Virus record (IMG/VR): IMGVR_UViG_3300027704_002498
Coordinates: 1 to 44,147 of that record
DNA length: 44,147 nt
Strand: one strand, 5' to 3'
DNA from: a virus
Made by a program: the position numbers and the translations under genes. The notes under the pieces were generated by a model. That model saw only the letters and a list, made by a program, of their open reading frames with translations. It made no database searches and had not been told where the DNA came from. Shown here in pieces: positions 1,868 through 39,214 of the stretch (the stretch's first letter is position 1; the number at the start of each line of letters is the position of its first letter).

Positions 1868-2986
1868 TTAGCAACCGTTCGATACAGTTGCTACTACATC
1901 AGCACCTTGAGTGTTTCTGTCAAAAGAATATGTACAAGTATCCGAACCATCTTGTGTGAAGTTTAATGTATAATCGTATATACTGTTACCTGATATAGTT
2001 ATGTTGGCTGTGTTAGCACCACCTTCTTGTGAAGCATAAATTAACGCACTATTTGTATTCACTGTAAGATTCAAATCGTTATTATTGCCTTGTTGATACA
2101 TTCCAATTCTATTAGTATTGCCACTAACTCTTAATGCTAGATCATTGTTATCGCCAAATTGCATTACTTTATTAAAGCCCTCACTATAAGCCTCTGGCGT
2201 ATAATCAACTCTATTGTTAGAAGCACCATTAAAGAACTCAATAAGCATATAGTTACTTTCGCCTTCGGTTTCTGTTTGTATAGAGTTGCTAGATCCAATA
2301 ATATAGAAGTCAATTGATGCTAAGTTTTTATCAGCAACTGCTCCGTGATTAAGTGAATTGTAATGACCTACTGCCGCGTTGGCTGTTGTGTTCATGCCTG
2401 AACCCTCACCCATCAAGTAGTTAATGTAATTGCTATCACCGTAAACATACACATATAAGTGATGACCACCGCCTGATCCGTTTTCAGTTTTAAACCACAT
2501 TTCATTATCTGTACCATCAATATCAATGTCGTAATTTTGATTTGCTACGTTAGTACCGTCTGGGGCATCTTGAATAAACACAAGGTTATCATTGCCTCTG
2601 ATATCAATGTCTATCCACCAACCTGTGTCGCCGGTGTCATCCATATCTAAGTTTATTGCGTTGTCGCTACCTTTGATGTTAACGTCTAGTGTACAGTTAG
2701 TACAATCAAATGTGGACCAATTTTCAAAGTCGTTTGTGTATCCAACCTGTCTAATATTGACAGTATTTCCTGTACCTGTAATTTCAAAATCGTCAGTGGA
2801 AGAATTACCGATCCAGTTATCGGCTCCATCTTGCTTTATGTAAATAGTTTCACCGGCTCCAGCGCCTGAAGTATCCTCTAATAAAAGATATACATGATTG
2901 CCGCCATCAACTGTGTCTGCTAATACAAGACTAGTTAGCGAGATGCCACATAGCAGACTTAATAGGATGTTCCGCATTAGTTTCAT
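1868..2986 (-). CDS. Curlin-repeat (CsgA/CsgB-like) secreted protein
   Basis: Signal peptide (MRNILLSLLCGISLTSLVLA) followed by about 330 residues of irregular beta-solenoid repeats built on a G-x-x-N core, for example GTGNTVNIRQVG, GNTNRIGMYQQGNNNDLN and GDNNDLALRVSG. These match the curlin pattern in which Gly, Asn and Gln alternate with short hydrophobic strands. Two Cys pairs are visible, one near residue 100 (CTNC) and one at the C-terminus. ATG at 2986 is chosen because AGGAG lies six bases upstream; an in-frame TTG at 2992 is too close to it. The gene overlaps the end of the CsgG gene by 56 bases, implying translational coupling. The likely role is a substrate exported by CsgG that forms a fibre or surface layer. 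It is longer than E. coli CsgA (about 150 residues) and its repeats are looser, so amyloid formation is unproven. Confidence 0.65.
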   Translation of the reverse strand: MKLMRNILLSLLCGISLTSLVLADTVDGGNHVYLLLEDTSGAGAGETIYIKQDGADNWIGNSSTDDFEITGTGNTVNIRQVGYTNDFENWSTFDCTNCTLDVNIKGSDNAINLDMDDTGDTGWWIDIDIRGNDNLVFIQDAPDGTNVANQNYDIDIDGTDNEMWFKTENGSGGGHHLYVYVYGDSNYINYLMGEGSGMNTTANAAVGHYNSLNHGAVADKNLASIDFYIIGSSNSIQTETEGESNYMLIEFFNGASNNRVDYTPEAYSEGFNKVMQFGDNNDLALRVSGNTNRIGMYQQGNNNDLNLTVNTNSALIYASQEGGANTANITISGNSIYDYTLNFTQDGSDTCTYSFDRNTQGADVVATVSNGC

Positions 2987-4025
2987 TATCAACTCCTGAA
3001 TTTACGAGATTTTCATCTATTGTTGTTTCCGGATCCACTATTGCTCCACCATCGACTGGCGCCACTTCTTCGATTTCGGCTTCTCGTTCTGCTGCCGCCA
3101 TTTCTTCTTCAATTTCCGCTTGCATTTCTAATGCCGCTACTCTAGCCTCTTCTTTAGACGCTTTAGCCTGTAGTGCTAGTCTAAGTTTTTCTTCTTCGAT
3201 GGCGTCTAATTCGGCTTTAGTAGGACCAAACTTCCATAATTCTAATTCGGCACCTTCTTTAATAATTGACACAACTCCAGCCTCAATTGCTTTTCTAACA
3301 GCATAAGTTACTGGCTCATTTTTGGCGTATCCGGCCTCTATTTCTACTAACATTGTACTAGCATCAACATATTTAAATATATCTGCGCCTGTACTTGATG
3401 AATATATTGTTTTTTCAATAGTAGTAGAAATAATAACTTCACCTGTTTGTACGTTAATTAAACGTAAAATTATAGAAATAATGTCTTGTCTATATTCACT
3501 ATGTCCTTGTAAACCTAAAACTCTAGCACCAAGTCCGCCCGATAAAACATCACTGTCATATCCTACTACACCGCCTGTTACATAAGCTCCAGCAAATAAT
3601 AACGCTGGTAATGGCTGTGCTTCTTCGCCGTCTGACATTTGTCTAGTAGTTCTAATTAACTTACGTTCTTGTAACAGTGAAGCCAAACTGTGACGTTCAA
3701 CTACTCTAAACCATTTGCCATCTCCAGCATCTTGTAACGCTTTAATTAGTATTTGGTAAGAACCCTGTGTTACCGCACTTGACATTGAAGCATAGTTTCC
3801 GCCTGGTTTCTTCTGACCCGACATGTCACCAAAGTCATACACAGCTATAATAATCGGAGCGCCGTCTGGCTGTGTAATTGTCTTAAGTTCTGAAAAAGCT
3901 ACTTCTTGCGTTTTTAAATATCCTTTGTTCGTTGTTGTTGAACACCCTACTGCGAATACTGTCAATAATAATACTGTTGCTATTTTCTTGAATGTACCGT
4001 CTATTTTAATTGATCTAATATCCAT
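2931..4025 (-). CDS. csgG: CsgG-family outer-membrane secretion channel lipoprotein
   Basis: CsgG forms a nonameric lipid-anchored pore that exports curli subunits across the outer membrane. The N-terminus is a lipoprotein signal with the lipobox AVGC (Cys at about residue 28), followed by a CsgG-like core: the PIIIAVYDFGDMSGQ strand, a KALQDAGDGKWFRVVERH segment, LLQERKLIR, and SIILRLINVQTGEVIISTTI. The core ends near residue 270. After it comes a phage-specific tail of about 90 residues that is mostly Glu, Ala and Lys (charged helix) and then acidic; E. coli CsgG (277 residues) lacks this. The start is an ATG one base after the csgF stop codon. Together with CsgF and a curlin-like protein it forms a small curli-type operon. 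How the phage uses it is not known from the sequence; export of the downstream products or host envelope permeabilisation are both possible. Confidence 0.85.
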   Translation of the reverse strand: MDIRSIKIDGTFKKIATVLLLTVFAVGCSTTTNKGYLKTQEVAFSELKTITQPDGAPIIIAVYDFGDMSGQKKPGGNYASMSSAVTQGSYQILIKALQDAGDGKWFRVVERHSLASLLQERKLIRTTRQMSDGEEAQPLPALLFAGAYVTGGVVGYDSDVLSGGLGARVLGLQGHSEYRQDIISIILRLINVQTGEVIISTTIEKTIYSSSTGADIFKYVDASTMLVEIEAGYAKNEPVTYAVRKAIEAGVVSIIKEGAELELWKFGPTKAELDAIEEEKLRLALQAKASKEEARVAALEMQAEIEEEMAAAEREAEIEEVAPVDGGAIVDPETTIDENLVNSGVDNETNAEHPIKSAMWHLAN

Positions 4026-4026
4026 G

Positions 4027-4491
4027 TTAACTGTTATCCTCTTTTGGCATTGTGTAAGTAGTTACTGTACCATCCGATTCTGTTACTGTTACCACAACAT
4101 TACCTGCACCTGATGGAGTCGTCCAAGCAACTGTTTCACCGTTAGTACCTGTAAATGTTCCTGAATCTTGTTGGTTTCCGTCTGATCCAAATACGTTATC
4201 CGTAATTTGTTTAGCAAGTGCTGTATAGAATCTTGCTTCTAAATTTGCTTTAAATTTAGCAAATGCTGTAGCATTAATTTCGTCTTTAAGTGCTTTAGCA
4301 GTCGCTTTCTCTTTTGCTTTCACGGCATCTTCACGTGTTTTTTCAATGTTTTCAATAGTCAAGTAATGTGAGGATTGACCACTGCCGTTAAACGACGGAC
4401 TACCGAACCCAAAAGTCAGTTCGCTACTGTTAACTGGCGTAATTGCCAGTGTAAAAACCATCGTTGTTAAAAATATAAAACTTGTTTTCAT
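4027..4491 (-). CDS. csgF: CsgF-like curli assembly factor
   Basis: CsgF is a small periplasmic or surface partner that inserts its N-terminus into the CsgG pore. Here a signal peptide (MKTSFIFLTTMVFTLAITPV) is followed by SSELTFGFGSPSFNGSG, which closely resembles the mature CsgF N-terminus (T-F-x-F-x-N-P-x-F-G-G), the part that plugs CsgG. Residues 45-100 form a charged helical region, and the last 50 residues are Gly/Thr-rich beta. ATG at 4491 is preferred because CGGAG lies nine bases upstream; the longer reading frame to 4512 has no better site. It is the first gene of the curli-like operon and sits just downstream of a CATAAATA late-type box. Length (154 residues) is close to E. coli CsgF (138). 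Confidence 0.75.
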   Translation of the reverse strand: MKTSFIFLTTMVFTLAITPVNSSELTFGFGSPSFNGSGQSSHYLTIENIEKTREDAVKAKEKATAKALKDEINATAFAKFKANLEARFYTALAKQITDNVFGSDGNQQDSGTFTGTNGETVAWTTPSGAGNVVVTVTESDGTVTTYTMPKEDNS

Positions 4492-4519
4492 AATGTTCGC
4501 TCCGAATATCATATAAACT

Positions 4520-6460: not shown

Positions 6461-7360
6461 TTAACTGTCATCAAATAAGTCGTCAAAGTTATTAGTTGGT
6501 GGTACAGTAGGATCATAATTCATAATTAACAATTCTGTTCTTTCTGGTCGAACGCCACCTGCCGGCTTACCATCCTTTGTTAAAGCACCTTCTTGTTTAG
6601 CTAAACCGTTGTTAGTAAATGTAACTTCTTCGTGCCAGTAATATTGGGTACGTGGTAGCATTTTCTCAAGTTCTGGAAAATAATAATAACTTAATGCCCA
6701 CTTGCCTTTGGTCTGTTTGAGTAGATCTATTAACTCTAAATGATCAAGTTTTCCAAATTCATCTTCTGTATAATAACTTTCAAGTTTAAAGTAAGGTGGG
6801 TCTACATAAAAGAAAGTGTCTTTGTGATCATACTTTCTAATTAAATCTCTACAATCAAGATTTTCTACTGTAAGATGTTTTAGTTTATCTAAGTATCTTA
6901 TTTGCTGAAACTTTTCGGTAAACGTTTTAAACTTTGCTTTATAATTTTCATTAATATAAATTTTAGATTTGTCAGTTAACCCATTGCCGCCGGCAAATAT
7001 CTGTAATTGACAAAGCATATACTTTGCCGCTAAATCATAGTCTGGAATAGGAAATGGTTTTCCGTAAATAGTGAACACTTCATCTCGGTAACCTGTAAAC
7101 TTATCAGAATCACGTAAATCATTATAATACGTTTTACACGTTTCTTCCATCTTTGCTGGATCAGTACTACTACATAAAAACACATTTGCTAAATGCCTGT
7201 TAAAGTCATTATAAACATTTGTGTTTACTGGATACTTACCGCTCATCCAATATATCCACATAGCACCACCGAATACTTCTACGTAAGTCTTTGACTCGCC
7301 CGGAAACATTGGATCTATCCATCTGCTATGATGTTTTTTACCGCCTATATAAGGAAACAT
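6461..7360 (-). CDS. dam: Dam-type (D12 class) DNA N6-adenine methyltransferase
   Basis: Transfers methyl from SAM to adenine in DNA. Motif I-like residues lie at the N-terminus (FPYIGGKKHHSRWI and TYVEVFGGAMW), and the catalytic motif DPPY is at residues 187-190 (DTFFYVDPPYF). The order (SAM site first, DPPY later) and length (299) fit the D12/Dam class. The ATG overlaps the guaC stop region by one base. It probably protects phage DNA from host restriction or marks it for replication or packaging; the recognition site cannot be read from sequence. It sits between GMP reductase and the QueC-like gene, so base supply and base modification are grouped together. Confidence 0.85.
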   Translation of the reverse strand: MFPYIGGKKHHSRWIDPMFPGESKTYVEVFGGAMWIYWMSGKYPVNTNVYNDFNRHLANVFLCSSTDPAKMEETCKTYYNDLRDSDKFTGYRDEVFTIYGKPFPIPDYDLAAKYMLCQLQIFAGGNGLTDKSKIYINENYKAKFKTFTEKFQQIRYLDKLKHLTVENLDCRDLIRKYDHKDTFFYVDPPYFKLESYYTEDEFGKLDHLELIDLLKQTKGKWALSYYYFPELEKMLPRTQYYWHEEVTFTNNGLAKQEGALTKDGKPAGGVRPERTELLIMNYDPTVPPTNNFDDLFDDS

Positions 7361-8466
7361 TATTCACCTATTGTTGAATTTTCATAAACTGCGTTAAATT
7401 GATTATTTACTTGTATAAATGTAGCACACTTTGTAAGTCGTTTTAACATATTAGCACCTACGTATGTACACGAACTTCTAACTCCACCTAATACATCTTG
7501 TATAGTACCTTCTACATTGCCTCTATACGGTACTAGTACAGTTCTTCCCTCACTTGATCGATATTTCTTTAACCCACCAAAGTGTTTTTCGTTTGCTGAC
7601 TTTGAACTCATACCGTAGAACTGTACAAACTGTTTTTCTTCGTATACTGTTTCGTAGAAGTTATCATCTGTTTTAATAACTTCGTCTGTTTCATAAGTTT
7701 TAGTAATTACTTCGCCACCGCCCTCGTCATGTCCTGCTAACATTCCACCAAGCATAACAAAGTCACTGCCACCGGCAAATGCCTTTGCAACATCACCAGG
7801 GCAAGTACATCCACCGTCAGCGATAATGTGACCACCCAAACCATGTGCCGCATCGGCACATTCGATAACTGCTGACAACTGTGGATAGCCCACACCAGTT
7901 TTAATCCTAGTAGTACAAACACTACCAGGTCCAATGCCAACCTTAACGATATCGGCTCCATTTAAAATTAACTCCTGCGTCTGATCTGCTGTAACAACAT
8001 TCCCGGCAATGATAATCACGCCTGGATATTTTTTTCTAAACATAGCAATAAAATCTAAAAACCTTTCTGAGTAACCGTTTGCTACATCGATACAGACATA
8101 CTTTAAATTTTCGCCTACGCTGTCATATACTTCTTTAAATTTATTCACATCTCGTTCTAAAATGCCGATGCTCATAGCAACGTATTCTGCTCTAGAAGAA
8201 CCATTAAAAAACTCTACTAACTCCTCTACAGAATATGTCTTAACTAAACAAGTAAAAATAGACTGTTTAAGCAATGCGTCTGCCATTTCAAACGTACCAA
8301 CTCCATCCATGTTAGCCGCCATTAATGGAATACCTTTCCATTTGTGTTTATTTTTAAATGTAAATTCTCGCATAAGTTGAACATCTTTTCTCGATCCTAA
8401 TACACTTCTTTTTGGCCTTAATAATACACTACTGTAATCTAGTTTTATATCTTGTTCAATTCTCAT
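7360..8466 (-). CDS. guaC: GMP reductase
   Basis: A TIM-barrel enzyme of the IMPDH/GMPR family. The N-terminus [14 protein letters not shown] and the segment [14 protein letters not shown] are typical of GuaC, and the catalytic Cys184 lies in [20 protein letters not shown]. There is no CBS-domain insertion, which favours GMP reductase over IMP dehydrogenase, and 368 residues is close to E. coli GuaC (347). It deaminates GMP to IMP with NADPH, opening a route from guanine to adenine nucleotides. In an AT-rich phage this could rebalance purine pools. It overlaps the cytidylyltransferase gene by 11 bases and the methylase gene by one, so it is part of the ClpS-led operon. Confidence 0.88.
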
Positions 8467-9400: not shown

Positions 9401-9709
9401 TTATTCCTTCTCTATTTTTACTTGTAAAGGAAAACCTCTACTTCTTGCCAATACAGTTACTTCAATGCCTTTTTGTTCAGCAATCTCATACGGTAATACG
9501 GCTACAACTGCAAACCCATCTTCATGAATTTTTAATGTTATGGCCTCAGCGTCTTCTGGATTGTAATCAAATATATCTAATAAGGTTTCTACAACAAATT
9601 CCATTGTTGTTAATTCGTCATTCATATAAATGACTTTGTAAAGTCCAGGTTCGTCAATTTTGACTTGTGTACCTGTTTGTACCTTTTCTTTTATTTCAGT
9701 GTCACTCAT
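9401..9709 (-). CDS. clpS: ClpS-like adaptor of the Clp protease
   Basis: ClpS binds the N-domain of ClpA/ClpC, delivers N-degron substrates and lowers degradation of ssrA-tagged proteins by ClpAP. The 102-residue protein keeps the whole core: YKVIYMNDELTTMEFVVETL, KIHEDGFAVVAVLPYEIAEQ and LARSRGFPL. Residues that form the N-degron pocket in bacterial ClpS are present (Asn30, Asp31, Met36, His62). The start ATG has AGAGG about six bases upstream. It is the first gene behind a perfect sigma70 promoter (9736-9764), so it is probably made early. No clpA is visible in the window; a host ClpA would be the partner. ClpX, also encoded here, does not normally use ClpS. Confidence 0.85.
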   Translation of the reverse strand: MSDTEIKEKVQTGTQVKIDEPGLYKVIYMNDELTTMEFVVETLLDIFDYNPEDAEAITLKIHEDGFAVVAVLPYEIAEQKGIEVTVLARSRGFPLQVKIEKE

Positions 9710-9735: not shown

Positions 9736-9764
9736 ATTATAACTGATTTTATACCGTTTGTCAA
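9736..9764 (-). promoter_or_regulatory. Consensus sigma70 promoter for the clpS operon
   Basis: Minus-strand TTGACA (9764-9759), a 17-base spacer, then TATAAT (9741-9736): full consensus. It lies about 27 bases upstream of the clpS start and just downstream of the hsp20 terminator, so it begins a separate, probably early, transcription unit. Confidence 0.85.
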
Positions 9765-9820: not shown

Positions 9821-10249
9821 TTATTTGATATTAATTGTTCTTGGCTTTTTAGCCTCTGGAACAATTTTCTCCAATGATACTTTTAGTAAGCCATCTTTTA
9901 ATTCCGCACCGTTAACTACAACATCTTCAGCAATAGTGAAAGATCTTTTGAATTGACGTTTTGAAATTCCTCTGTGTAATACACTTGGATCTTCGTCAGC
10001 GTCTTTTTCACTTTGAACTGAATTAACAGTTAAGTTATTATCAGCATATTTTACTTCAATGTCTTTTTTGCCAAAGCCGGCTAAAGCCATTTCGATATCA
10101 TATGTGAAGTCGCCTGTTTTTACGATATTGTATGGTGGAAAATTCACTTGAGGCATATCAGTAATGTGTTCAAAATGATTGAACATATCGTCGAATCCTA
10201 CTGTGAATGGTTTTAGTTGATTAAAGATAGATAGTCTTGCGTTTGTCAT
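9821..10249 (-). CDS. hsp20: Small heat-shock protein (Hsp20/IbpA family)
   Basis: 142 residues with an alpha-crystallin domain at about 35-135: YNIVKTGDFTYDIEMALAGF, the DIEVKYADNNLTV strand, GISKRQFKRSFTIAEDV and the GLLKVSLEK strand. The C-terminal INI matches the I-x-I motif used for oligomer assembly. It acts as an ATP-independent holdase; in marine T4-like phages it is thought to help fold virion proteins. The SD site AAGGAG is strong. It is a single-gene unit with a TATAAATA late box and a sigma70-like box upstream and a strong terminator downstream, suggesting high expression both early and late. Confidence 0.92.
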   Translation of the reverse strand: MTNARLSIFNQLKPFTVGFDDMFNHFEHITDMPQVNFPPYNIVKTGDFTYDIEMALAGFGKKDIEVKYADNNLTVNSVQSEKDADEDPSVLHRGISKRQFKRSFTIAEDVVVNGAELKDGLLKVSLEKIVPEAKKPRTINIK

Positions 10250-13056: not shown

Positions 13057-13353
13057 TTAGTACATTCTCTTTTTGGAAAATCCCCAGGCTGAGTCGAGCT
13101 CACGTTGTTTCTTCTTCCAACGGTTTACGCCGGCTTTTTTAGCAAGGCGTCGCTTCTCACTTGGTTTTGTATAAAACTGCCTGTCTCTTGCTTCTTGTAA
13201 AGTATTGTCTGCTTGAAGTCTTTTCTTCAGTATTCGCAATGCCTTTGTAACATCACCATTTCTAACTTCAATTGTTGTTCCGCCTGTTAAATCTTGTGCT
13301 CTTTTAAATTTTGGTGGCCTTTCATATCCACCCTGCTTTTTATTTACAAACAT
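13057..13353 (-). CDS. rpsU: Ribosomal protein bS21
   Basis: 98 residues, strongly basic. The segment TTIEVRNGDVTKALRILKKR followed by FYTKPSEKRRLAKKAGVNRW is the bS21 core, with an N-terminal extension of about 25 residues and a C-terminal extension. bS21 sits on the 30S platform beside the anti-SD end of 16S rRNA and helps start-site choice. Phage bS21 proteins can replace the host subunit. The start ATG overlaps the clpX stop (TAATG), and a perfect AGGAGG lies within the last clpX codons, so the two are translationally coupled with very strong initiation on bS21. Confidence 0.93.
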   Translation of the reverse strand: MFVNKKQGGYERPPKFKRAQDLTGGTTIEVRNGDVTKALRILKKRLQADNTLQEARDRQFYTKPSEKRRLAKKAGVNRWKKKQRELDSAWGFSKKRMY

Positions 13354-14513
13354 TAAACCTCCTGTACGTCTGATTCATTAATAATTACTTCTTTCCCTGT
13401 TAGTTCGTCTAACTCATAATAGTATTCAAGCAAGGTACTTTCTAATATACCCTTTAATGCTCTAGCCCCTATCTTATATTGTAACGCAAGGTCTACTATC
13501 TTGTCAAGAGCTTTCTCCGAAAATATCAGTTCAACCCCATCTAACTCAAAATAGAACCTAGTTTGATCTAATAGGTTGTTATCAACATCGGTTAATATCT
13601 GCTTTAACTCATCTTTCGATAATTCTTTTGTTTGTACTATTACCGGAAAACGGCCAACAAATTCAGGTATCATTCCGTAGTTGATTAATTCAGAAGTTAT
13701 TAATTTTTTTTCTTTAGCATTGGCACTATTAAATCCAATAACACTAGAACTACTTTCAGTCAATCCAACAAACGCTCCACTACCAATAAACAGTATTCTA
13801 CTAGTATCTACTTCGATCATTTCCTGTTGCGGGTGCTTGCGGCCACCCATAGGTGCTACCCTAACAATAGTTCCTTCTACTAATTTTAGTAAGGCTTGCT
13901 GTACACCTTCTCCAGAAACATCTCTTGTTATTGAAGCGTTTTCTCCTTTGCGGCCAATCTTATCTATTTCATCTAAAAATATAATACCCTGTTCAGCCCT
14001 TGCTACATTGTAATCCACTTTCATTAATAACGAACTAATAATACTTTCAACATCATCGCCTACGTAGCCGCTTTCTGTTAAACTTGTAGCATCAGCAATT
14101 ACAATAGGAACATCTAAAAATTTAGCTATCTGCTTAGCCATAAATGTTTTGCCACTTCCTGTAGGACCAATAATTAGTTGATTGTTCTTTTCGACAGTTC
14201 CATCTAAGTCAAACATTAACCGTTTGTAATGATTAACAACACCAACTGCCATATGCCGTTTAGCTCGATGCTGGCCCACCATATTATTATCTAAAAAAGA
14301 AACAATCTCTTTGGCTGTTTTTGGTTTGAGGCTTCGTGTGTTTGCTTTTGCTTTTTCATCTGTTAAAACTTTGCTACACAAGTCTATACATTCGTCACAG
14401 ATTCCCACTCCCTCAGCAACAATAATTTTATATACTTGGTCTTTATTTTTGCCGCAGAAGTTACACTCTGTAACTTGTAATATCTCATCTATGTTTGTTG
14501 AAAAATCAGTCAT
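13353..14513 (-). CDS. clpX: ClpX, ATPase subunit of the Clp protease
   Basis: A full ClpX of 386 residues (E. coli 424). The N-terminal zinc domain has Cys17, Cys20, Cys39 and Cys42. Walker A is GPTGSGKT (116-123), pore loop 1 is SGYVGDD, Walker B is IIFLDEIDKI, the RKH loop is GGRKHPQQE, and the sensor-2 segment is KIGARALKG. The IGF tripeptide that docks onto ClpP is present (SSVIGFNSA). ClpX recognises ssrA tags ending in Ala-Ala, unfolds the protein and feeds it to ClpP; no clpP is visible here, so host ClpP is the likely partner. The start is supported by AAAGG seven bases upstream. It overlaps the preceding gene and is coupled to rpsU. Confidence 0.95.
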   Translation of the reverse strand: MTDFSTNIDEILQVTECNFCGKNKDQVYKIIVAEGVGICDECIDLCSKVLTDEKAKANTRSLKPKTAKEIVSFLDNNMVGQHRAKRHMAVGVVNHYKRLMFDLDGTVEKNNQLIIGPTGSGKTFMAKQIAKFLDVPIVIADATSLTESGYVGDDVESIISSLLMKVDYNVARAEQGIIFLDEIDKIGRKGENASITRDVSGEGVQQALLKLVEGTIVRVAPMGGRKHPQQEMIEVDTSRILFIGSGAFVGLTESSSSVIGFNSANAKEKKLITSELINYGMIPEFVGRFPVIVQTKELSKDELKQILTDVDNNLLDQTRFYFELDGVELIFSEKALDKIVDLALQYKIGARALKGILESTLLEYYYELDELTGKEVIINESDVQEV

Positions 14514-20909: not shown

Positions 20910-20938
20910 ATTATAGCATATTTTGGCCAATTTGTCAA
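20910..20938 (-). promoter_or_regulatory. Consensus sigma70 promoter for the hydrolase-metalloprotease unit
   Basis: Minus-strand TTGACA (20938-20933), 17-base spacer, TATAAT (20915-20910): full consensus, 34 bases upstream of the hydrolase ATG. Confidence 0.85.
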
Positions 20939-21409: not shown

Positions 21410-22450
21410 CTATTCTCTCCATAGTTCGCCGAAATTAAGATCTTCTCGTCTATTAAAAAGATCCTCAGGTTCACTTTTTCTGTTAATATCAAACGTAACA
21501 CAATGACTACCACCGTCCCAAAAATATTTGTGTCGCAAAGGACAATGTATTACTTCAATATCATTGTTATTTAACAGTTTAGTAACATCTTTATTTGTAT
21601 GACTTGTAATAACTGTTTCTGGATTAATATGTAACATATTAACTTCAAATGTAGTTTCTTGACTATAACCAATCCAATGTGTTAGGTACTGCTTAATAAA
21701 ATCTATTGCTTCTTGTTGCGGTTCGTTAACTAATTTAAAACTAAAATCTTCCCAAAGTCTATGGTAACGTTCTAAGTCATTTGGCATATAGTGAGGCAGT
21801 TTATGTATGTTCCAGCCGTGAAACGTATCCGAATATTGGTCTATTTCATAACGTGTTAATAACAGCCCCGGCTTAATAGGACACACGCTCGAGTCACTAT
21901 GGCCACCCATACTTGCTGTATGAATATTAACATCTAGTTCATGTGTGTCTCTATATTTTTTAATCCATTCAGTAAACGGTAAGTTATCTTTATTTTGTGT
22001 ATCTATTAACAAATCTTTGCCTAACCTAAAGACATCGCTGGCGCAAAAATAATCAAATAGTATAACGTCATCCTTATGATCGTGTAATGCTTCTTTACCG
22101 TAATTTTCCCATGCCCACTTGGCTCCAACAAATATTTTATCGTGCCAGCGTAACATGTGGTTTCTTACAGCAAATGGTTGACCTGGAAGTGTTTTACGTT
22201 CTGCTATTGTTTGCTCAGCATGAGTGAACCCTTCATTTTCCATATAGGTTTTAATATTAGGTCTTACAACCTCAACATCGTGAGAACGTAGAACTGAACA
22301 CATGTTTTCTAAATCTTCTTGTGTTTCTTCTGTTATCTGTGTGAGGCAATTTTTAATTTGGGTAGGGAGACCGTCGTAAACACTTGCCGGCAAAACATCT
22401 CCCACAAGTACCTTTGATAGTTCACCCCAACTGTGAAAACAATTATCCAT
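21410..22450 (-). CDS. Amidinotransferase-family enzyme (glycine amidinotransferase-like), copy 1
   Basis: 346 residues of the pentein fold. The catalytic Cys317 lies in WDGGSHCVTFDINRK, and the His motif is MGGHSDSSVCPIKPGL, as in glycine and inosamine-phosphate amidinotransferases, which move an amidino group from arginine to an amine acceptor. The acceptor cannot be predicted. The nearest relative in the window is the gene at 24809-26050, with the same motifs. Its ATG is 33 bases downstream of a strong terminator, and there is no obvious SD, so expression may depend on readthrough from the promoter at 22650. Confidence 0.82.
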   Translation of the reverse strand: MDNCFHSWGELSKVLVGDVLPASVYDGLPTQIKNCLTQITEETQEDLENMCSVLRSHDVEVVRPNIKTYMENEGFTHAEQTIAERKTLPGQPFAVRNHMLRWHDKIFVGAKWAWENYGKEALHDHKDDVILFDYFCASDVFRLGKDLLIDTQNKDNLPFTEWIKKYRDTHELDVNIHTASMGGHSDSSVCPIKPGLLLTRYEIDQYSDTFHGWNIHKLPHYMPNDLERYHRLWEDFSFKLVNEPQQEAIDFIKQYLTHWIGYSQETTFEVNMLHINPETVITSHTNKDVTKLLNNNDIEVIHCPLRHKYFWDGGSHCVTFDINRKSEPEDLFNRREDLNFGELWRE

Positions 22451-22649: not shown

Positions 22650-22678
22650 ATTATACTATATTTATTCGAAATTGTCAA
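22650..22678 (-). promoter_or_regulatory. Consensus sigma70 promoter upstream of the candidate small RNA
   Basis: Minus-strand TTGACA (22678-22673), 17-base spacer, TATAAT (22655-22650): full consensus. The -35 box overlaps the stop codon of the gene upstream. The spacer also contains AATAAATA, resembling a late box. Confidence 0.85.
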
Positions 22679-23507: not shown

Positions 23508-24416
23508 TTAGAACGTAAATTTAAGTCCTAGTGCCATTTGTGATGTATCTGTGCTTGATGCTAAAGTTAAGTCAGTTGACTGATATTCAACATAAGTGCT
23601 TAAAGAACTAGACAAGTCACGGCTAACACCAGCTGTGTAGTATTTTGCTGTGCCTTCTTTGTCCTGGAATCCAACTGATACTGTGTTACCAGCAAGAGTT
23701 GTAGAAGCTGTATATTCCATACCAGTTAAGTCAGCAGTACCAACTACATCTTTAACTGAATAAGTAGAAGCTAGTGTAATACCAGCTATGTCGATGCTTC
23801 CAGATAGTAAACGATATTTGATAACGTTAACTTTATCATTTACCATTCCGCCTGCTACTGATATTGGGCCTATGTCCATAGAAGCCGAAATGTCAGTCAC
23901 ATCCATACCTGTTTTTCCAGTTGCTCCGTCAATTACTGCTAGAGCATCTAAAGTTACAGGACCTACTGTGTTAGAATATTTTACTGTGTTAGAAGAACGA
24001 TCAGCATAATTAAATGTTGCGTTTCCACCATACACATTAAATATGTTTGTCTTACTTACACCAGCACCTGGATTTGTTTGTCTACCCATAGATACTGCAC
24101 CTACCGCACCTGCGTCTACACCAACATAAGCTAGTCTAGAATCAAATGTATCAGATCCTGCATCATCTGTATCAACACCAATTTCTAATTTACCAAAACC
24201 TGTTAAAGTAGCTGACTGGCCTTCGACTAATGTCTCAGAAAAATCAACGCCAATTTTAGATCCGTTGTCTTGTGCCTTCAAAACAGCTTTTCCAGTACTA
24301 TCATCATCATTGCTGACTTTGTAGTTTACTGAACCATAGAGGTTAACGTCTGCAAATGCCGAAGCACCTGTAAACATTAGGCCTAAAGCCATAGTGGCGA
24401 TTAGTATTTTTTTCAT
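23508..24416 (-). CDS. Gram-negative outer-membrane porin
   Basis: 302 residues. Signal peptide MKKILIATMALGLMFTGASA is followed by the mature start DVNLYGSVNYKV, alternating amphipathic beta strands (FGKLEIGVDT, VGAVSMGRQTNPG, VKYSNTVGPVTLDALAV) and the C-terminal LGLKFTF ending in Phe, the BAM insertion signal. These are features of general trimeric porins, most like those of beta/gammaproteobacteria. ATG at 24416 has AAGGA about seven bases upstream. It is bounded by the tmRNA hairpin and a strong terminator. A phage-borne porin could change host outer-membrane permeability or mask or replace the phage receptor. It probably came from a host. Confidence 0.88.
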   Translation of the reverse strand: MKKILIATMALGLMFTGASAFADVNLYGSVNYKVSNDDDSTGKAVLKAQDNGSKIGVDFSETLVEGQSATLTGFGKLEIGVDTDDAGSDTFDSRLAYVGVDAGAVGAVSMGRQTNPGAGVSKTNIFNVYGGNATFNYADRSSNTVKYSNTVGPVTLDALAVIDGATGKTGMDVTDISASMDIGPISVAGGMVNDKVNVIKYRLLSGSIDIAGITLASTYSVKDVVGTADLTGMEYTASTTLAGNTVSVGFQDKEGTAKYYTAGVSRDLSSSLSTYVEYQSTDLTLASSTDTSQMALGLKFTF

Positions 24417-24439: not shown

Positions 24440-24467
24440 AAAGACACTCACCAAACAATGGTGAGTG
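24440..24467 (-). terminator. Hairpin ending the tmRNA transcript
   Basis: Perfect 9-base-pair stem CACTCACCA / TGGTGAGTG with loop TTGTT on the minus strand, followed by TCTTT. The T run is short, so it may be partial and let the tmRNA transcript continue into the porin gene, or act as a processing signal. Confidence 0.6.
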
Positions 24468-24469
24468 CC

Positions 24470-24745
24470 CTTTTGTAGATTTCTGTTGATAGGCATCTTC
24501 TAACCCCGAGCAACTATGCCGCTATGGCATAGTCCTCAAAAAACACATTATCTTTTGCGTTTATAGTTTTTGTTCGCGTTAATCCAGCTTACATCGGAGT
24601 GACTCCACTTTCCTAATAACTACCAGTCGATCCTATATCAACCCCATCATAAAAATATTCTCAACTTTAGGAACGAATATGCTTATGGTGGAGTTGCCGG
24701 GTACTGCCCCCGGGTCCTGATTAGTGTTTGAATTGCTTCAACATC
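24470..24745 (-). ncRNA. ssrA: Two-piece (circularly permuted) tmRNA
   Basis: tmRNA rescues stalled ribosomes and adds a degradation tag. The order is permuted. The acceptor piece comes first (about 24745-24686) and reads CUAAU, then T-arm CCGGG-GGCAGUA-CCCGG, acceptor strand CAACUCC, discriminator A and an encoded CCA ending at 24686. After a spacer of about 40 bases the coding piece begins at 24645 with GGGGTTGATATAGGATCGAC, the usual tmRNA 5' end. The two acceptor strands pair over 7 base pairs with G3-U, the alanine identity pair. AUUAG in the coding piece can pair with CUAAU to form helix P2. The tag frame is at 24558-24514. The exact 5' and 3' ends are estimates. A TATAAATA box lies directly upstream. 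The alphaproteobacterial-type split suggests acquisition from such a host. Confidence 0.9.
24514..24558 (-). other. tmRNA tag reading frame (AKDNVFFEDYAIAA)
   Basis: Resume codon GCA, 14 codons, then TAG. The end YAIAA matches the hydrophobic-Ala-Ala signal read by ClpX; DN near the start resembles alphaproteobacterial tags. The final codons form a hairpin, CTATGCC-ATAGC-GGCATAG, equivalent to P5. The exact resume codon is inferred: the alternative GCG frame upstream gives a basic tag with an early stop. Confidence 0.8.
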
Positions 24746-24752
24746 ACGTACA

Positions 24753-24760
24753 TATTTATA
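24753..24760 (-). promoter_or_regulatory. T4-like late promoter TATAAATA for the tmRNA
   Basis: Exact minus-strand TATAAATA. Transcription would start near 24745, just before the acceptor piece, so the tmRNA and perhaps the porin are late products. I found no recognisable riboswitch upstream. Confidence 0.65.
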
Positions 24761-24808
24761 ACATATTACGATATAAATGTCAAGAAAGTGATTGGAAAAA
24801 CACCCAGT

Positions 24809-26050
24809 TTATAGGTTGTAGTCGGTTTGTTTGCCCTTTCTGTGAATGTCAAGTGTATTACAATGCCACCCGCCGTCCCAGAAAAATCTGTGCCTTAAAG
24901 GAACATAAATTGGAGTGATGCCTCTCTGCTCGAGCTGATTTATTAAATTTTTATCGTTACTATTAATAACAACATGCTTCTCATCAATGACTAAAACGTT
25001 AACATCAAATATAGTTTCGTCTGATTGTCCATGCCAGTTGTCTAGCCAGTTGTTAATAAAATTTTCTAATTGTGGATTTTCTTCTACTTCGGGTGTCCAA
25101 TAACAACCTTGGTTGTTGTGTCTTAAATTTATTGCTGATTTAACTTCCTTACCCCAACTTGGTTGATCAAACCAAATAATATCCCAACCTTTAAAAATAT
25201 CAGCATACGGTTTGAACCAAGGAGTAGCAATTACTAAGCCTGGACGAACTACACTAAACACGCTGTCGTTGTGTCCACCAATAAAAATTTTATGAAAGTC
25301 AAAGTCTTTATAGTTAGGTTCTAAAAATTCTTCTACTACCTCTGGAGTTTGCCACACATCAACTAAAACTTTATTGCCAAGCCTAGTTAAGTTAGGAGCA
25401 CACCATCCGTTTAATGGCGTAGAGCTTTGTAACTTTTCTAGTTCTGCTATATCATCAACATCAATAGATAAATGATGTCGTTCTGCCCAACTTTTAACGT
25501 TTTTAATACTACGCCTAAAGTTAATATTCTTTTCATATATACTATTATCTACTACAGCATCGCCAAACATTTCTTTATACTTTATAGCAGACAAGTTAGT
25601 ACTATATACGTGAGCCTGTGTAATTAATATTTTGTTGCCCATTACTAGAGCATCATCTCTTATTGCTAATGGTGGTTGAGGTATTCCTGTACTAGAATCA
25701 CGTGATAAGCGTATGTTCCTGTGGTTTACACCAAAGTCACTTGCTTCTGGAAAATCCTTAATAGGACTACTTACACCTATTTCTCCTGTTTGCCAATCTG
25801 TATAATCTAATATACTATCTTGGTAACCTAGTTCTTTTGGTGTAAGTTGTATAACATCAATGCCGTGGCTTAATAATGTTTGTTTAAAGTATTCAATATC
25901 TTCTCGTGTTTCACGAAGTATTTTAGCTAGACCGTTTTTAATAGTTGTATTCTTAATCCCATCTAAGAAACTATCCTCAAAGACTGACCCTACCATTACA
26001 GTTTTTAATGGTTGAAATTCATCCCAAGAGTTTACGGTTAAGTTTGACAA
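24809..26050 (-). CDS. Amidinotransferase-family enzyme (glycine amidinotransferase-like), copy 2
   Basis: 413 residues of the same pentein family as the gene at 21410-22450, with catalytic Cys397 in WDGGWHCNTLDIHRKGK and His in IGGHNDSVFSVVRPGL. The C-terminal halves of the two proteins are alike in motif order (Y-x-P-L-R-H-R-F-F-W-D-G-G); copy 2 is about 67 residues longer, mainly in the N-terminal half. The only start is TTG at 26050, without a good SD, 3 bases after the preceding stop. The acceptor amine is unknown. The copies flank the tmRNA-porin unit, which suggests either an old duplication with an insertion between, or two different substrates. Confidence 0.82.
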   Translation of the reverse strand: MSNLTVNSWDEFQPLKTVMVGSVFEDSFLDGIKNTTIKNGLAKILRETREDIEYFKQTLLSHGIDVIQLTPKELGYQDSILDYTDWQTGEIGVSSPIKDFPEASDFGVNHRNIRLSRDSSTGIPQPPLAIRDDALVMGNKILITQAHVYSTNLSAIKYKEMFGDAVVDNSIYEKNINFRRSIKNVKSWAERHHLSIDVDDIAELEKLQSSTPLNGWCAPNLTRLGNKVLVDVWQTPEVVEEFLEPNYKDFDFHKIFIGGHNDSVFSVVRPGLVIATPWFKPYADIFKGWDIIWFDQPSWGKEVKSAINLRHNNQGCYWTPEVEENPQLENFINNWLDNWHGQSDETIFDVNVLVIDEKHVVINSNDKNLINQLEQRGITPIYVPLRHRFFWDGGWHCNTLDIHRKGKQTDYNL

Positions 26051-37592: not shown

Positions 37593-38120
37593 CTATTCTA
37601 TGTCAATTGGATAACATAGTGTATTTACTTTAATGCCGGTTGTGACCATTGTGTTAGTTATTAAATTTGTTGTTTCGTTTAGACCTGTTATAATAGGTAT
37701 AACGTCTAATTGCTGTATTAGTAAATTAACAGGATCATCATAGTTTAAATAAACATCAGTAGTTTCAAAGCCAAACTCAAATGTCCACACTTTTTTCTTA
37801 CCGGTATATCCAAATCCTAGGCTAGCTAAATTTACAGTTTCTATAATCGGTGCTTCTAACATAATAGGTTGTGCCCTAATAGAAATACATTGTATAACTG
37901 TTTCCCAATTACGTTGCTCGTTTCTACTAACGTTCCATGTTTCTTTATTATTAATAATATTACTTAGGTCATCTACAAATGGCAGGGGAACATCATTTCT
38001 AAATTCAGATATCATACCAGTGGGAGATATATCTATTAATGTTTTTATTTTGTATCTGCTTCTTATTGTGCCAAAGCTATACCCTGCTGTAACTGAACCG
38101 TGTGTTGCCGTAGATGTCAT
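37593..38120 (-). CDS. Unknown phage protein, beta-rich, probable virion component
   Basis: 175 residues, strand-rich (KKVWTFEFGFETTDVYL, DVIPIITGLNETTNLI), with no signal peptide or catalytic motif. Its start overlaps the radical SAM stop by 4 bases. Position in the structural cluster suggests a virion role. Confidence 0.55.
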   Translation of the reverse strand: MTSTATHGSVTAGYSFGTIRSRYKIKTLIDISPTGMISEFRNDVPLPFVDDLSNIINNKETWNVSRNEQRNWETVIQCISIRAQPIMLEAPIIETVNLASLGFGYTGKKKVWTFEFGFETTDVYLNYDDPVNLLIQQLDVIPIITGLNETTNLITNTMVTTGIKVNTLCYPIDIE

Positions 38121-39214
38121 AATGTATACCTTTGTGAATTAAACGTACCTTCTTGACTACTAAACTCATACTCGTTACCGCAAGTTCTGCCGCAAGTAAA
38201 TAATTTTGAATTTTCACTATCCATTGTATTACCCCAACTATTGTTTAAATCTTTATTATAAAATTCGTGTTCTAATACGTCTTTTAATGTGTGTTCTCTT
38301 AATGAATTAAAATCTTTTTCATATCGATTTTGTAATGCTTTCAATTGTACTTTTTGAATATTATCTTCATTCTCAAAGTAAGTAGGCGCACCTACCCAAC
38401 AACAAGGCCATAGTTTCATTTGGAAATCTATGTAAACCGTTTTGTCTACTTTGTATTTACAAGTAATAGGTGTCTGGTCAACGTAAGAATTGAAACTACC
38501 AAACTTATCTATAATTTGCTCGTACTTGTTTTTATTTGTATTTTCTTTACTAGAAATAGTATGTGTTGATTTCTTATTGCTTACTTCTAATTCCATTACA
38601 TTATTAAAATCGCTTACGTTTATAAATCTGCTAGTATTTTTAAAATTAATACTTTTAAATTTTAGTTTAGTAGCAAGATCCTTTGCCTCTGCTACCTGAT
38701 GTATATTATGATCAAATATTAAGAAGTCCCAATGGGCATTGCCACCGGCGTTAATAAATGCTGTAATGTTTTCTTTTAATTTTTTCCAGTTACTATTAAT
38801 ACGATATAAATGATTTGTATCTTCAAGTCCGTCTATGCTAAAATCAACACGGTCTGTATCCCTATCTAAAATTTTAGCAACTTCTGTCCACCACTCTGGA
38901 TCTCTAGCACTACCGTTAGTAACTATAGTAAGTCCACCTACTCCCGAATATCTTATAAATTTTAAACATTCTAAAAAATTATTACTAGCAATACTATCTC
39001 CGTAATTGCCACACCAAAATATACGTTTTATTTGTTTAGCAAATTCGGGTGTTAAAATTCTTTTGTAATCATCAAGTGACAATTCATCTAACGGAAGTAT
39101 TGAATTTTTCTTTCCGTCATCACCGACCCTGGCACATTGAGGACAAAGTAAATTACATTTACTAGTGTGTTCAATATGTAAACAGGAGATTTCGTCAAGA
39201 TTTAGATAATTCAT
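38117..39214 (-). CDS. Radical SAM enzyme with C-terminal Cys-rich (SPASM-like) region
   Basis: 365 residues. The 4Fe-4S motif is Cys20, Cys24, Cys27 in EHTSKCNLLCPQCARV. The SAM-binding strands follow (IKRIFWCGNYGDS, GGLTIVTNGSARD, DRVDFSIDGLED). At the C-terminus CKYKVDKT, WPCCWVGAP and TCGRTCGNEY place at least six Cys for auxiliary clusters, as in SPASM/twitch enzymes that modify peptides or small molecules. The substrate is unknown; its neighbours are structural, and no RiPP-type precursor with Cys-rich core is obvious. A terminator precedes the gene, so it is a separate unit. Confidence 0.8.
   Translation of the reverse strand: MNYLNLDEISCLHIEHTSKCNLLCPQCARVGDDGKKNSILPLDELSLDDYKRILTPEFAKQIKRIFWCGNYGDSIASNNFLECLKFIRYSGVGGLTIVTNGSARDPEWWTEVAKILDRDTDRVDFSIDGLEDTNHLYRINSNWKKLKENITAFINAGGNAHWDFLIFDHNIHQVAEAKDLATKLKFKSINFKNTSRFINVSDFNNVMELEVSNKKSTHTISSKENTNKNKYEQIIDKFGSFNSYVDQTPITCKYKVDKTVYIDFQMKLWPCCWVGAPTYFENEDNIQKVQLKALQNRYEKDFNSLREHTLKDVLEHEFYNKDLNNSWGNTMDSENSKLFTCGRTCGNEYEFSSQEGTFNSQRYTL

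Follow-up and report, generated by a model that had tools for sequence, protein, structure and literature searches.

The window analyzed here, a single linear virus record from IMG/VR (44,147 bases) and probably a fragment, carries on its minus strand a complete permuted (two-piece) tmRNA gene of the alphaproteobacterial type (24472–24783), on which the raw sequence, Rfam and ARAGORN agree. We consider it probable that this gene yields a working tmRNA in a large marine phage related to T4 and that a composite promoter, which would be used both early and late in infection, drives it from a single start site. Two-piece phage tmRNAs have already been published, among them the ssrA of Methylophilales phage Melnitz (MZ577097; PMC9004378), so the type of tmRNA found here is already known in phages.

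The gene opens with the acceptor piece (24686–24748, minus strand), delimited by sequence, Rfam and covariation, and comprising a 5′ hairpin, the T arm (24713–24697) with a stem of 5 bp, the 3′ strand of the acceptor stem (24696–24690) and an encoded CCA (24688–24686). A spacer (24646–24685, minus strand) follows, placed by the order of the RF04321 and RF01849 models and presumably excised, as in other two-piece tmRNAs. The coding piece (24472–24645, minus strand), called by ARAGORN and by Rfam, with RF01849 reaching 24472, contains the 5′ strand of the acceptor stem (24645–24639), the tag region and the 3′ domain. The acceptor stem spans both pieces, CAACUCC (24696–24690) pairing with GGGGUUG (24645–24639), including the G3-U pair. 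The tag reading frame (24514–24558, minus strand) runs from GCA to TAG, with a resume codon and a stop, and encodes AKDNVFFEDYAIAA, the same tag that ARAGORN reports for its permuted tmRNA call.

RF04321 (tmRNA_permuted) matches 24748–24514 on the minus strand with 103.9 bits (curated cut-off 47; model positions 1–213 of 213), and RF01849 (alpha_tmRNA) matches 24781–24472 with 103.4 bits (curated cut-off 50; model positions 1–355 of 355), each scoring about twice its cut-off. An earlier note, made from the letters of this DNA, had described a phage-encoded two-piece tmRNA with the acceptor piece ahead of the coding piece, a G3-U pair in the acceptor stem, a T arm, an encoded CCA and a readable tag, and had proposed a covariance-model search as a check. 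The two full-length matches, the ARAGORN call and the covariation described below bear this description out in every one of these points, and we infer from membership in the family that the transcript is cut into two RNAs. No similar sequence was found when the tmRNA DNA was compared with GenBank phages.

Relatives were collected by searching viral contigs with the upstream neighbor protein, which gave 52 loci. The gene of this protein (24809–26050, minus strand; phrog_25854, amidinotransferase/DDAH-like) is a syntenic marker: all seven loci with a full-length neighbor protein (L122–L128; 86–95% identity) carry a permuted tmRNA directly after it. Their tags read ANDNVF(H/Y/N)ED(F/Y)ALAA or ANDNFANEDFALAA; in L126 and L127, ARAGORN places the start of the tag frame too early. 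Among eight aligned tmRNAs, Melnitz included, compensatory double changes occur in 14 of the 33 predicted pairs, the acceptor and T stems pair in all eight, and G3-U is invariant. Pairs predicted within the spacer are less regular and were left out as evidence. An alpha-type tmRNA within a phage could also be a functionless gene acquired from a host not long ago; however, the covariation of the stems, the synteny across relatives and a promoter unlike all host tmRNA promoters examined leave this explanation with almost no credence.

A porin-like gene with a signal-peptide-like start (23508–24416, minus strand) lies directly downstream of the tmRNA; three relatives (L124, L126 and L128) contain it in full, and in L123 and L125 the sequence shows where it begins. 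The encoded protein gave no family match, and its structure model is unusable (mean pLDDT 29.5). Between the two genes lies a terminator-like 14-bp hairpin (24440–24472, minus strand; −22.1 kcal/mol, z −6.9), and hairpins of different sequence occupy the equivalent place in L124 and L128. Terminator prediction called no terminator on the minus strand at this hairpin, which by its shape and position may be a terminator or a 3′ processing signal. Two related amidinotransferase/dimethylargininase-like proteins (phrog_25854), encoded at 21410–22450 and 24809–26050 (minus strand), flank the tmRNA block.

The promoter of the tmRNA combines two elements. A −35 element TTGACA (24778–24783, minus strand), of which TTGAC is invariant in all eight aligned rows, stands exactly 17 nt upstream of TATAAATA (24753–24760, minus strand), which is both a T4-type late box and the −10 element of a sigma-70-type promoter, preceded by TG. 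Agreement with the sigma-70 consensus extends to 11 of 12 positions with a spacer of 17. Across the aligned rows, the 17-nt spacing and TGTTATAAATA are likewise invariant and the remaining spacer has diverged; both halves of the composite are kept in all seven close relatives. Of the listed TATAAATA sites of the window and Melnitz, the two at the tmRNAs are alone in having a −35 match of 6/6; another Melnitz site (TTGACT) reaches 5/6, and no other exceeds 4/6. One of the three TATAAATA sites in the window has a −35 element of at least 5/6.

The earlier note had placed the tmRNA under late control. The box on which this view rested is indeed present, and all three TATAAATA sites of the window lie upstream of minus-strand genes, as a purely late promoter would have it. 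However, the box doubles as the −10 element of a conserved TTGACA-N17 promoter: TTGACA at 17 nt is found in all relatives, in Melnitz and in most box-bearing viral tmRNAs. Because TTGACA is conserved in the relatives, we reject a purely late promoter, a reading that retains very little likelihood. Most likely, as far as sequence can tell, the tmRNA promoter is a sigma-70-type early promoter whose −10 element is a T4 late box.

Viral and bacterial tmRNA promoters were surveyed with one T-arm/acceptor pattern in viral contigs (120 stretches) and in bacterial and archaeal genomes (115), to which 60 SAR11 loci were added. After removal of tmRNAs not permuted according to ARAGORN, loci without a call, and upstream-shortened, N-holding or duplicate segments, 59 of the 120 viral, 59 of the 115 bacterial and 33 of the 60 SAR11 segments were kept. 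TATAAATA stands upstream of 28 of the 59 viral tmRNAs (shuffle expectation 1.0) and of none of the 59 bacterial or 33 SAR11 ones (expectation 0.7). The form TTGAC[AT]-spacer-TATAAATA is present in 16/59 viral segments, and a second composite form, TATTATAAATA, in which TATTAT overlaps the late box, in 4/59. The composite promoter thus precedes 20 of the 59 distinct permuted tmRNAs from viruses, with a 17-nt spacer in 18 of the 20, and is absent from the bacterial tmRNA copies examined, SAR11 included (0/92). Another locus, L219, has the composite promoter too and falls outside the count of 59.

The difference between viruses and bacteria plus SAR11 (n = 92) is significant by Fisher's test both for the box (p = 2e-14) and for the composite (p = 7e-10). 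It persists in the subset with GC of at most 0.45 (box 26/49 viral vs. 0/37; composite 19/49 vs. 0/37) and after dereplication at 70% (box 24/55 and composite 18/55 viral vs. 0/61 bacterial). When segments were both GC-matched and dereplicated, which leaves only 7 bacterial segments, p is 0.016 for the box and 0.08 for the composite (17/45 vs. 0/7). When the tmRNAs are clustered at 70% identity, composites turn up in 17 of the 51 clusters, among them those of the window family and of Melnitz. A Melnitz-like gene lies at the locus in 30 of 34 box-bearing cases vs. 14 of 31 box-free ones, and in 10 of 59 bacterial cases.

The promoter could also be a strong sigma-70 promoter only, with TATAAATA tolerated as its −10 element and unused by any late sigma factor. 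TTGACA, the exact 17-nt spacing and the extended −10 are in line with this, and the Melnitz authors call the promoter early in the section on their tmRNA, where a late box goes unmentioned, a late-promoter motif being named in their methods (PMC9004378). Elsewhere in the window, three perfect TTGACA-N17-TATAAT sites (9736–9764, 20910–20938 and 22650–22678, minus strand) are probably early promoters. These use TATAAT, whereas the tmRNA promoters keep TATAAATA, without T at −7; moreover, four viral tmRNAs pair TATTAT with an overlapping TATAAATA, and the box was never found in the host tmRNA copies examined. We therefore regard a promoter read by sigma-70 only as unlikely.

A candidate for the late reader is gp55, which is annotated in Melnitz. 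A homolog of Melnitz gp55 is encoded in 7 of 32 related records, including the 204-kb nearest relative; none is found in the 44-kb window fragment. For eight isolate phages of alphaproteobacteria, each with a permuted tmRNA, the box is missing and the complete records contain no gp55 match. There are also counter-examples: L118 (G169) and L014 (G138) have gp55 without TATAAATA, and L121 (G171, 129 kb) carries the box but gives no match to gp55.

Under the composite reading, which we prefer, host sigma-70 RNA polymerase would read TTGACA-N17-TATAAA early and a gp55-type phage late sigma factor would read TATAAATA late, from the shared start site, so that the tmRNA would be made throughout infection. 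Such a dual-readable promoter could keep up tmRNA production after host transcription stops. Cleavage of the precursor would give the acceptor and coding pieces, G3-U would direct charging with alanine, and host SmpB would bind; the mature tmRNA would then release ribosomes that had stalled on broken mRNAs and tag their products for ClpXP/ClpAP. In the window lineage, the phage itself may supply ClpX and ClpS for this purpose. The recurrence of the composite in viral tmRNAs and its absence from the bacterial ones examined suggest that phages need tmRNA before and after host shut-off.

A different function is conceivable, in which the phage tmRNA acts as a competitor by sequestering SmpB, AlaRS or ribosomes of the host, or exchanges the tag and thereby lets proteins evade degradation. 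A CDS-less tmRNA of phage DS6A is reported to inhibit host tmRNA (PMC11915505), an SmpB gene is present in none of the 32 related records, the window's own included, and the window tag is unlike the bacterial tags observed. On the other side, this tag closes with the Clp-type degron AIAA (ALAA in the relatives), and the intact coding piece has a conserved reading frame; we consider a competitor role rather improbable.

The window encodes several proteins with a possible bearing on the fate of tagged products. ClpX (13353–14513, minus strand; 457.8 bits vs. an equivalog cut-off of 359) is encoded on the same strand as the tmRNA, about 10 kb away, and keeps the Cys4 zinc finger and the Walker A/B, GYVG, RKH and IGF motifs. 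We take RKH and GYVG to be those that read the ssrA tag and IGF to be the one that docks ClpP; the motifs for ATP use are also kept. Further minus-strand genes encode a ClpS adaptor (9401–9709; PF02617, 87.4 bits), the small heat-shock protein Hsp20 (9821–10249; PF00011, 64.2 bits) and ribosomal protein bS21 (13057–13353; TIGR00030, 50.7 bits). The window also encodes a GMP reductase (7360–8466, minus strand; NF003470, 525 bits) and a radical SAM protein (38117–39214, minus strand).

The nearest large relative (204 kb) adds a true ClpP. The tmRNA is present in 16 of 34 related records, the window's own excluded. Among 32 related records, own included, ClpS is found in 12, ClpX above cut-off in 14, a frequency biased because the records came from searches with ClpX or the neighbor gene, and ClpP in 14, of which only the 9 above 250 bits were counted because those scoring around 115 bits could represent head proteases. 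Four records (G001, G010, G031 and G034) combine the tmRNA with ClpX, ClpS and a ClpP match over 250 bits. However, a general partnership of tmRNA and ClpX is ruled out, since ClpX is encoded in none of 37 other tmRNA-bearing viral records, chosen from the 120 pattern-found stretches. With no ClpX there nor in Melnitz, a phage tmRNA does not require the Clp set, which, judging from gene content, is a trait of large-phage lineages and not of phage tmRNAs generally.

The presence of ClpX and ClpS alongside the tmRNA offers a testable link from phage tagging to phage-directed proteolysis. We tentatively speculate, without rating it as probable, that several T4-related lineages gave captured tmRNAs one fused early/late promoter, keeping trans-translation on throughout infection, and that in the window lineage the tmRNA supplies substrates to a degradation route belonging to the phage (its tag, ClpX and ClpS, with ClpP in relatives), for which SmpB alone would come from the host.

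Among the closest known systems is Melnitz, isolated on an OM43 bacterium, which likewise is a marine T4-like phage with a permuted alpha-type tmRNA and has TTGACA-N17-TATAAATA before its ssrA. The earlier note had mentioned a split tmRNA reported from an OM43 myophage, described there with a glutamine riboswitch, and had suggested that control would differ here; since Melnitz has the same composite, the window promoter is not a different control. The Melnitz riboswitch (L205, 46398–46446) lies 3′ of the tmRNA (46013–46345) and 5′ of the gene for a late-transcription coactivator, and therefore exerts no upstream control of the tmRNA; from this arrangement, the coactivator gene is its likelier target. 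The same note saw no riboswitch in the window, and rightly so: a whole-window Rfam scan at E ≤ 1 returns no RNA family besides the tmRNA and therefore no riboswitch. The glutamine riboswitch RF01739 specifically is absent at the window tmRNA (E ≤ 1) and from the loci of six relatives. Melnitz shares the CsgG/CsgF, Hsp20 and bS21 genes with the window, but its tmRNA lies elsewhere in the genome, beside the late-transcription coactivator, with the riboswitch 3′ of it, and tblastn finds no ClpX or ClpS. In the window, CsgG and CsgF are encoded at 2931–4512 (minus strand), as in pelagimyophages and Melnitz.

Compared with the alphaproteobacterial permuted tmRNAs of RF01849/RF04321, the window tmRNA has the same piece order, acceptor and T arms, tag and 3′ domain; the phage copies differ in the composite promoter, unseen in the 92 bacterial tmRNAs. 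Jumbo phages with Clp genes have been published before: Atu_ph07 (PMC6102473) and AP-J-162 (PMC11242549) are described as having ClpX and ClpP-type genes, Atu_ph07 also ClpS, and AP-J-162, like the window, a tmRNA, Hsp20 and bS21, while Atu_ph07 is without a tmRNA according to a table in the AP-J-162 paper (PMC11242549). Both belong to a phage group other than that of the window, and the authors of these papers connect ClpX with replication. The open-access literature consulted, mostly abstracts and passages, with few subscription papers, describes no fused early/late phage-tmRNA promoter, and the double early/late switch at a phage tmRNA appears to be new. A related case is known from phages RB49 and S-PM2, where overlapping early and late promoters are thought to stand in for middle transcription (PMC2984593). 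They too bring early and late elements together in one region, but that account describes them neither at a tmRNA nor as a single element fusing −10 and late box. By analogy, the tmRNA promoter may be one use of this RB49/S-PM2-type early/late overlap.
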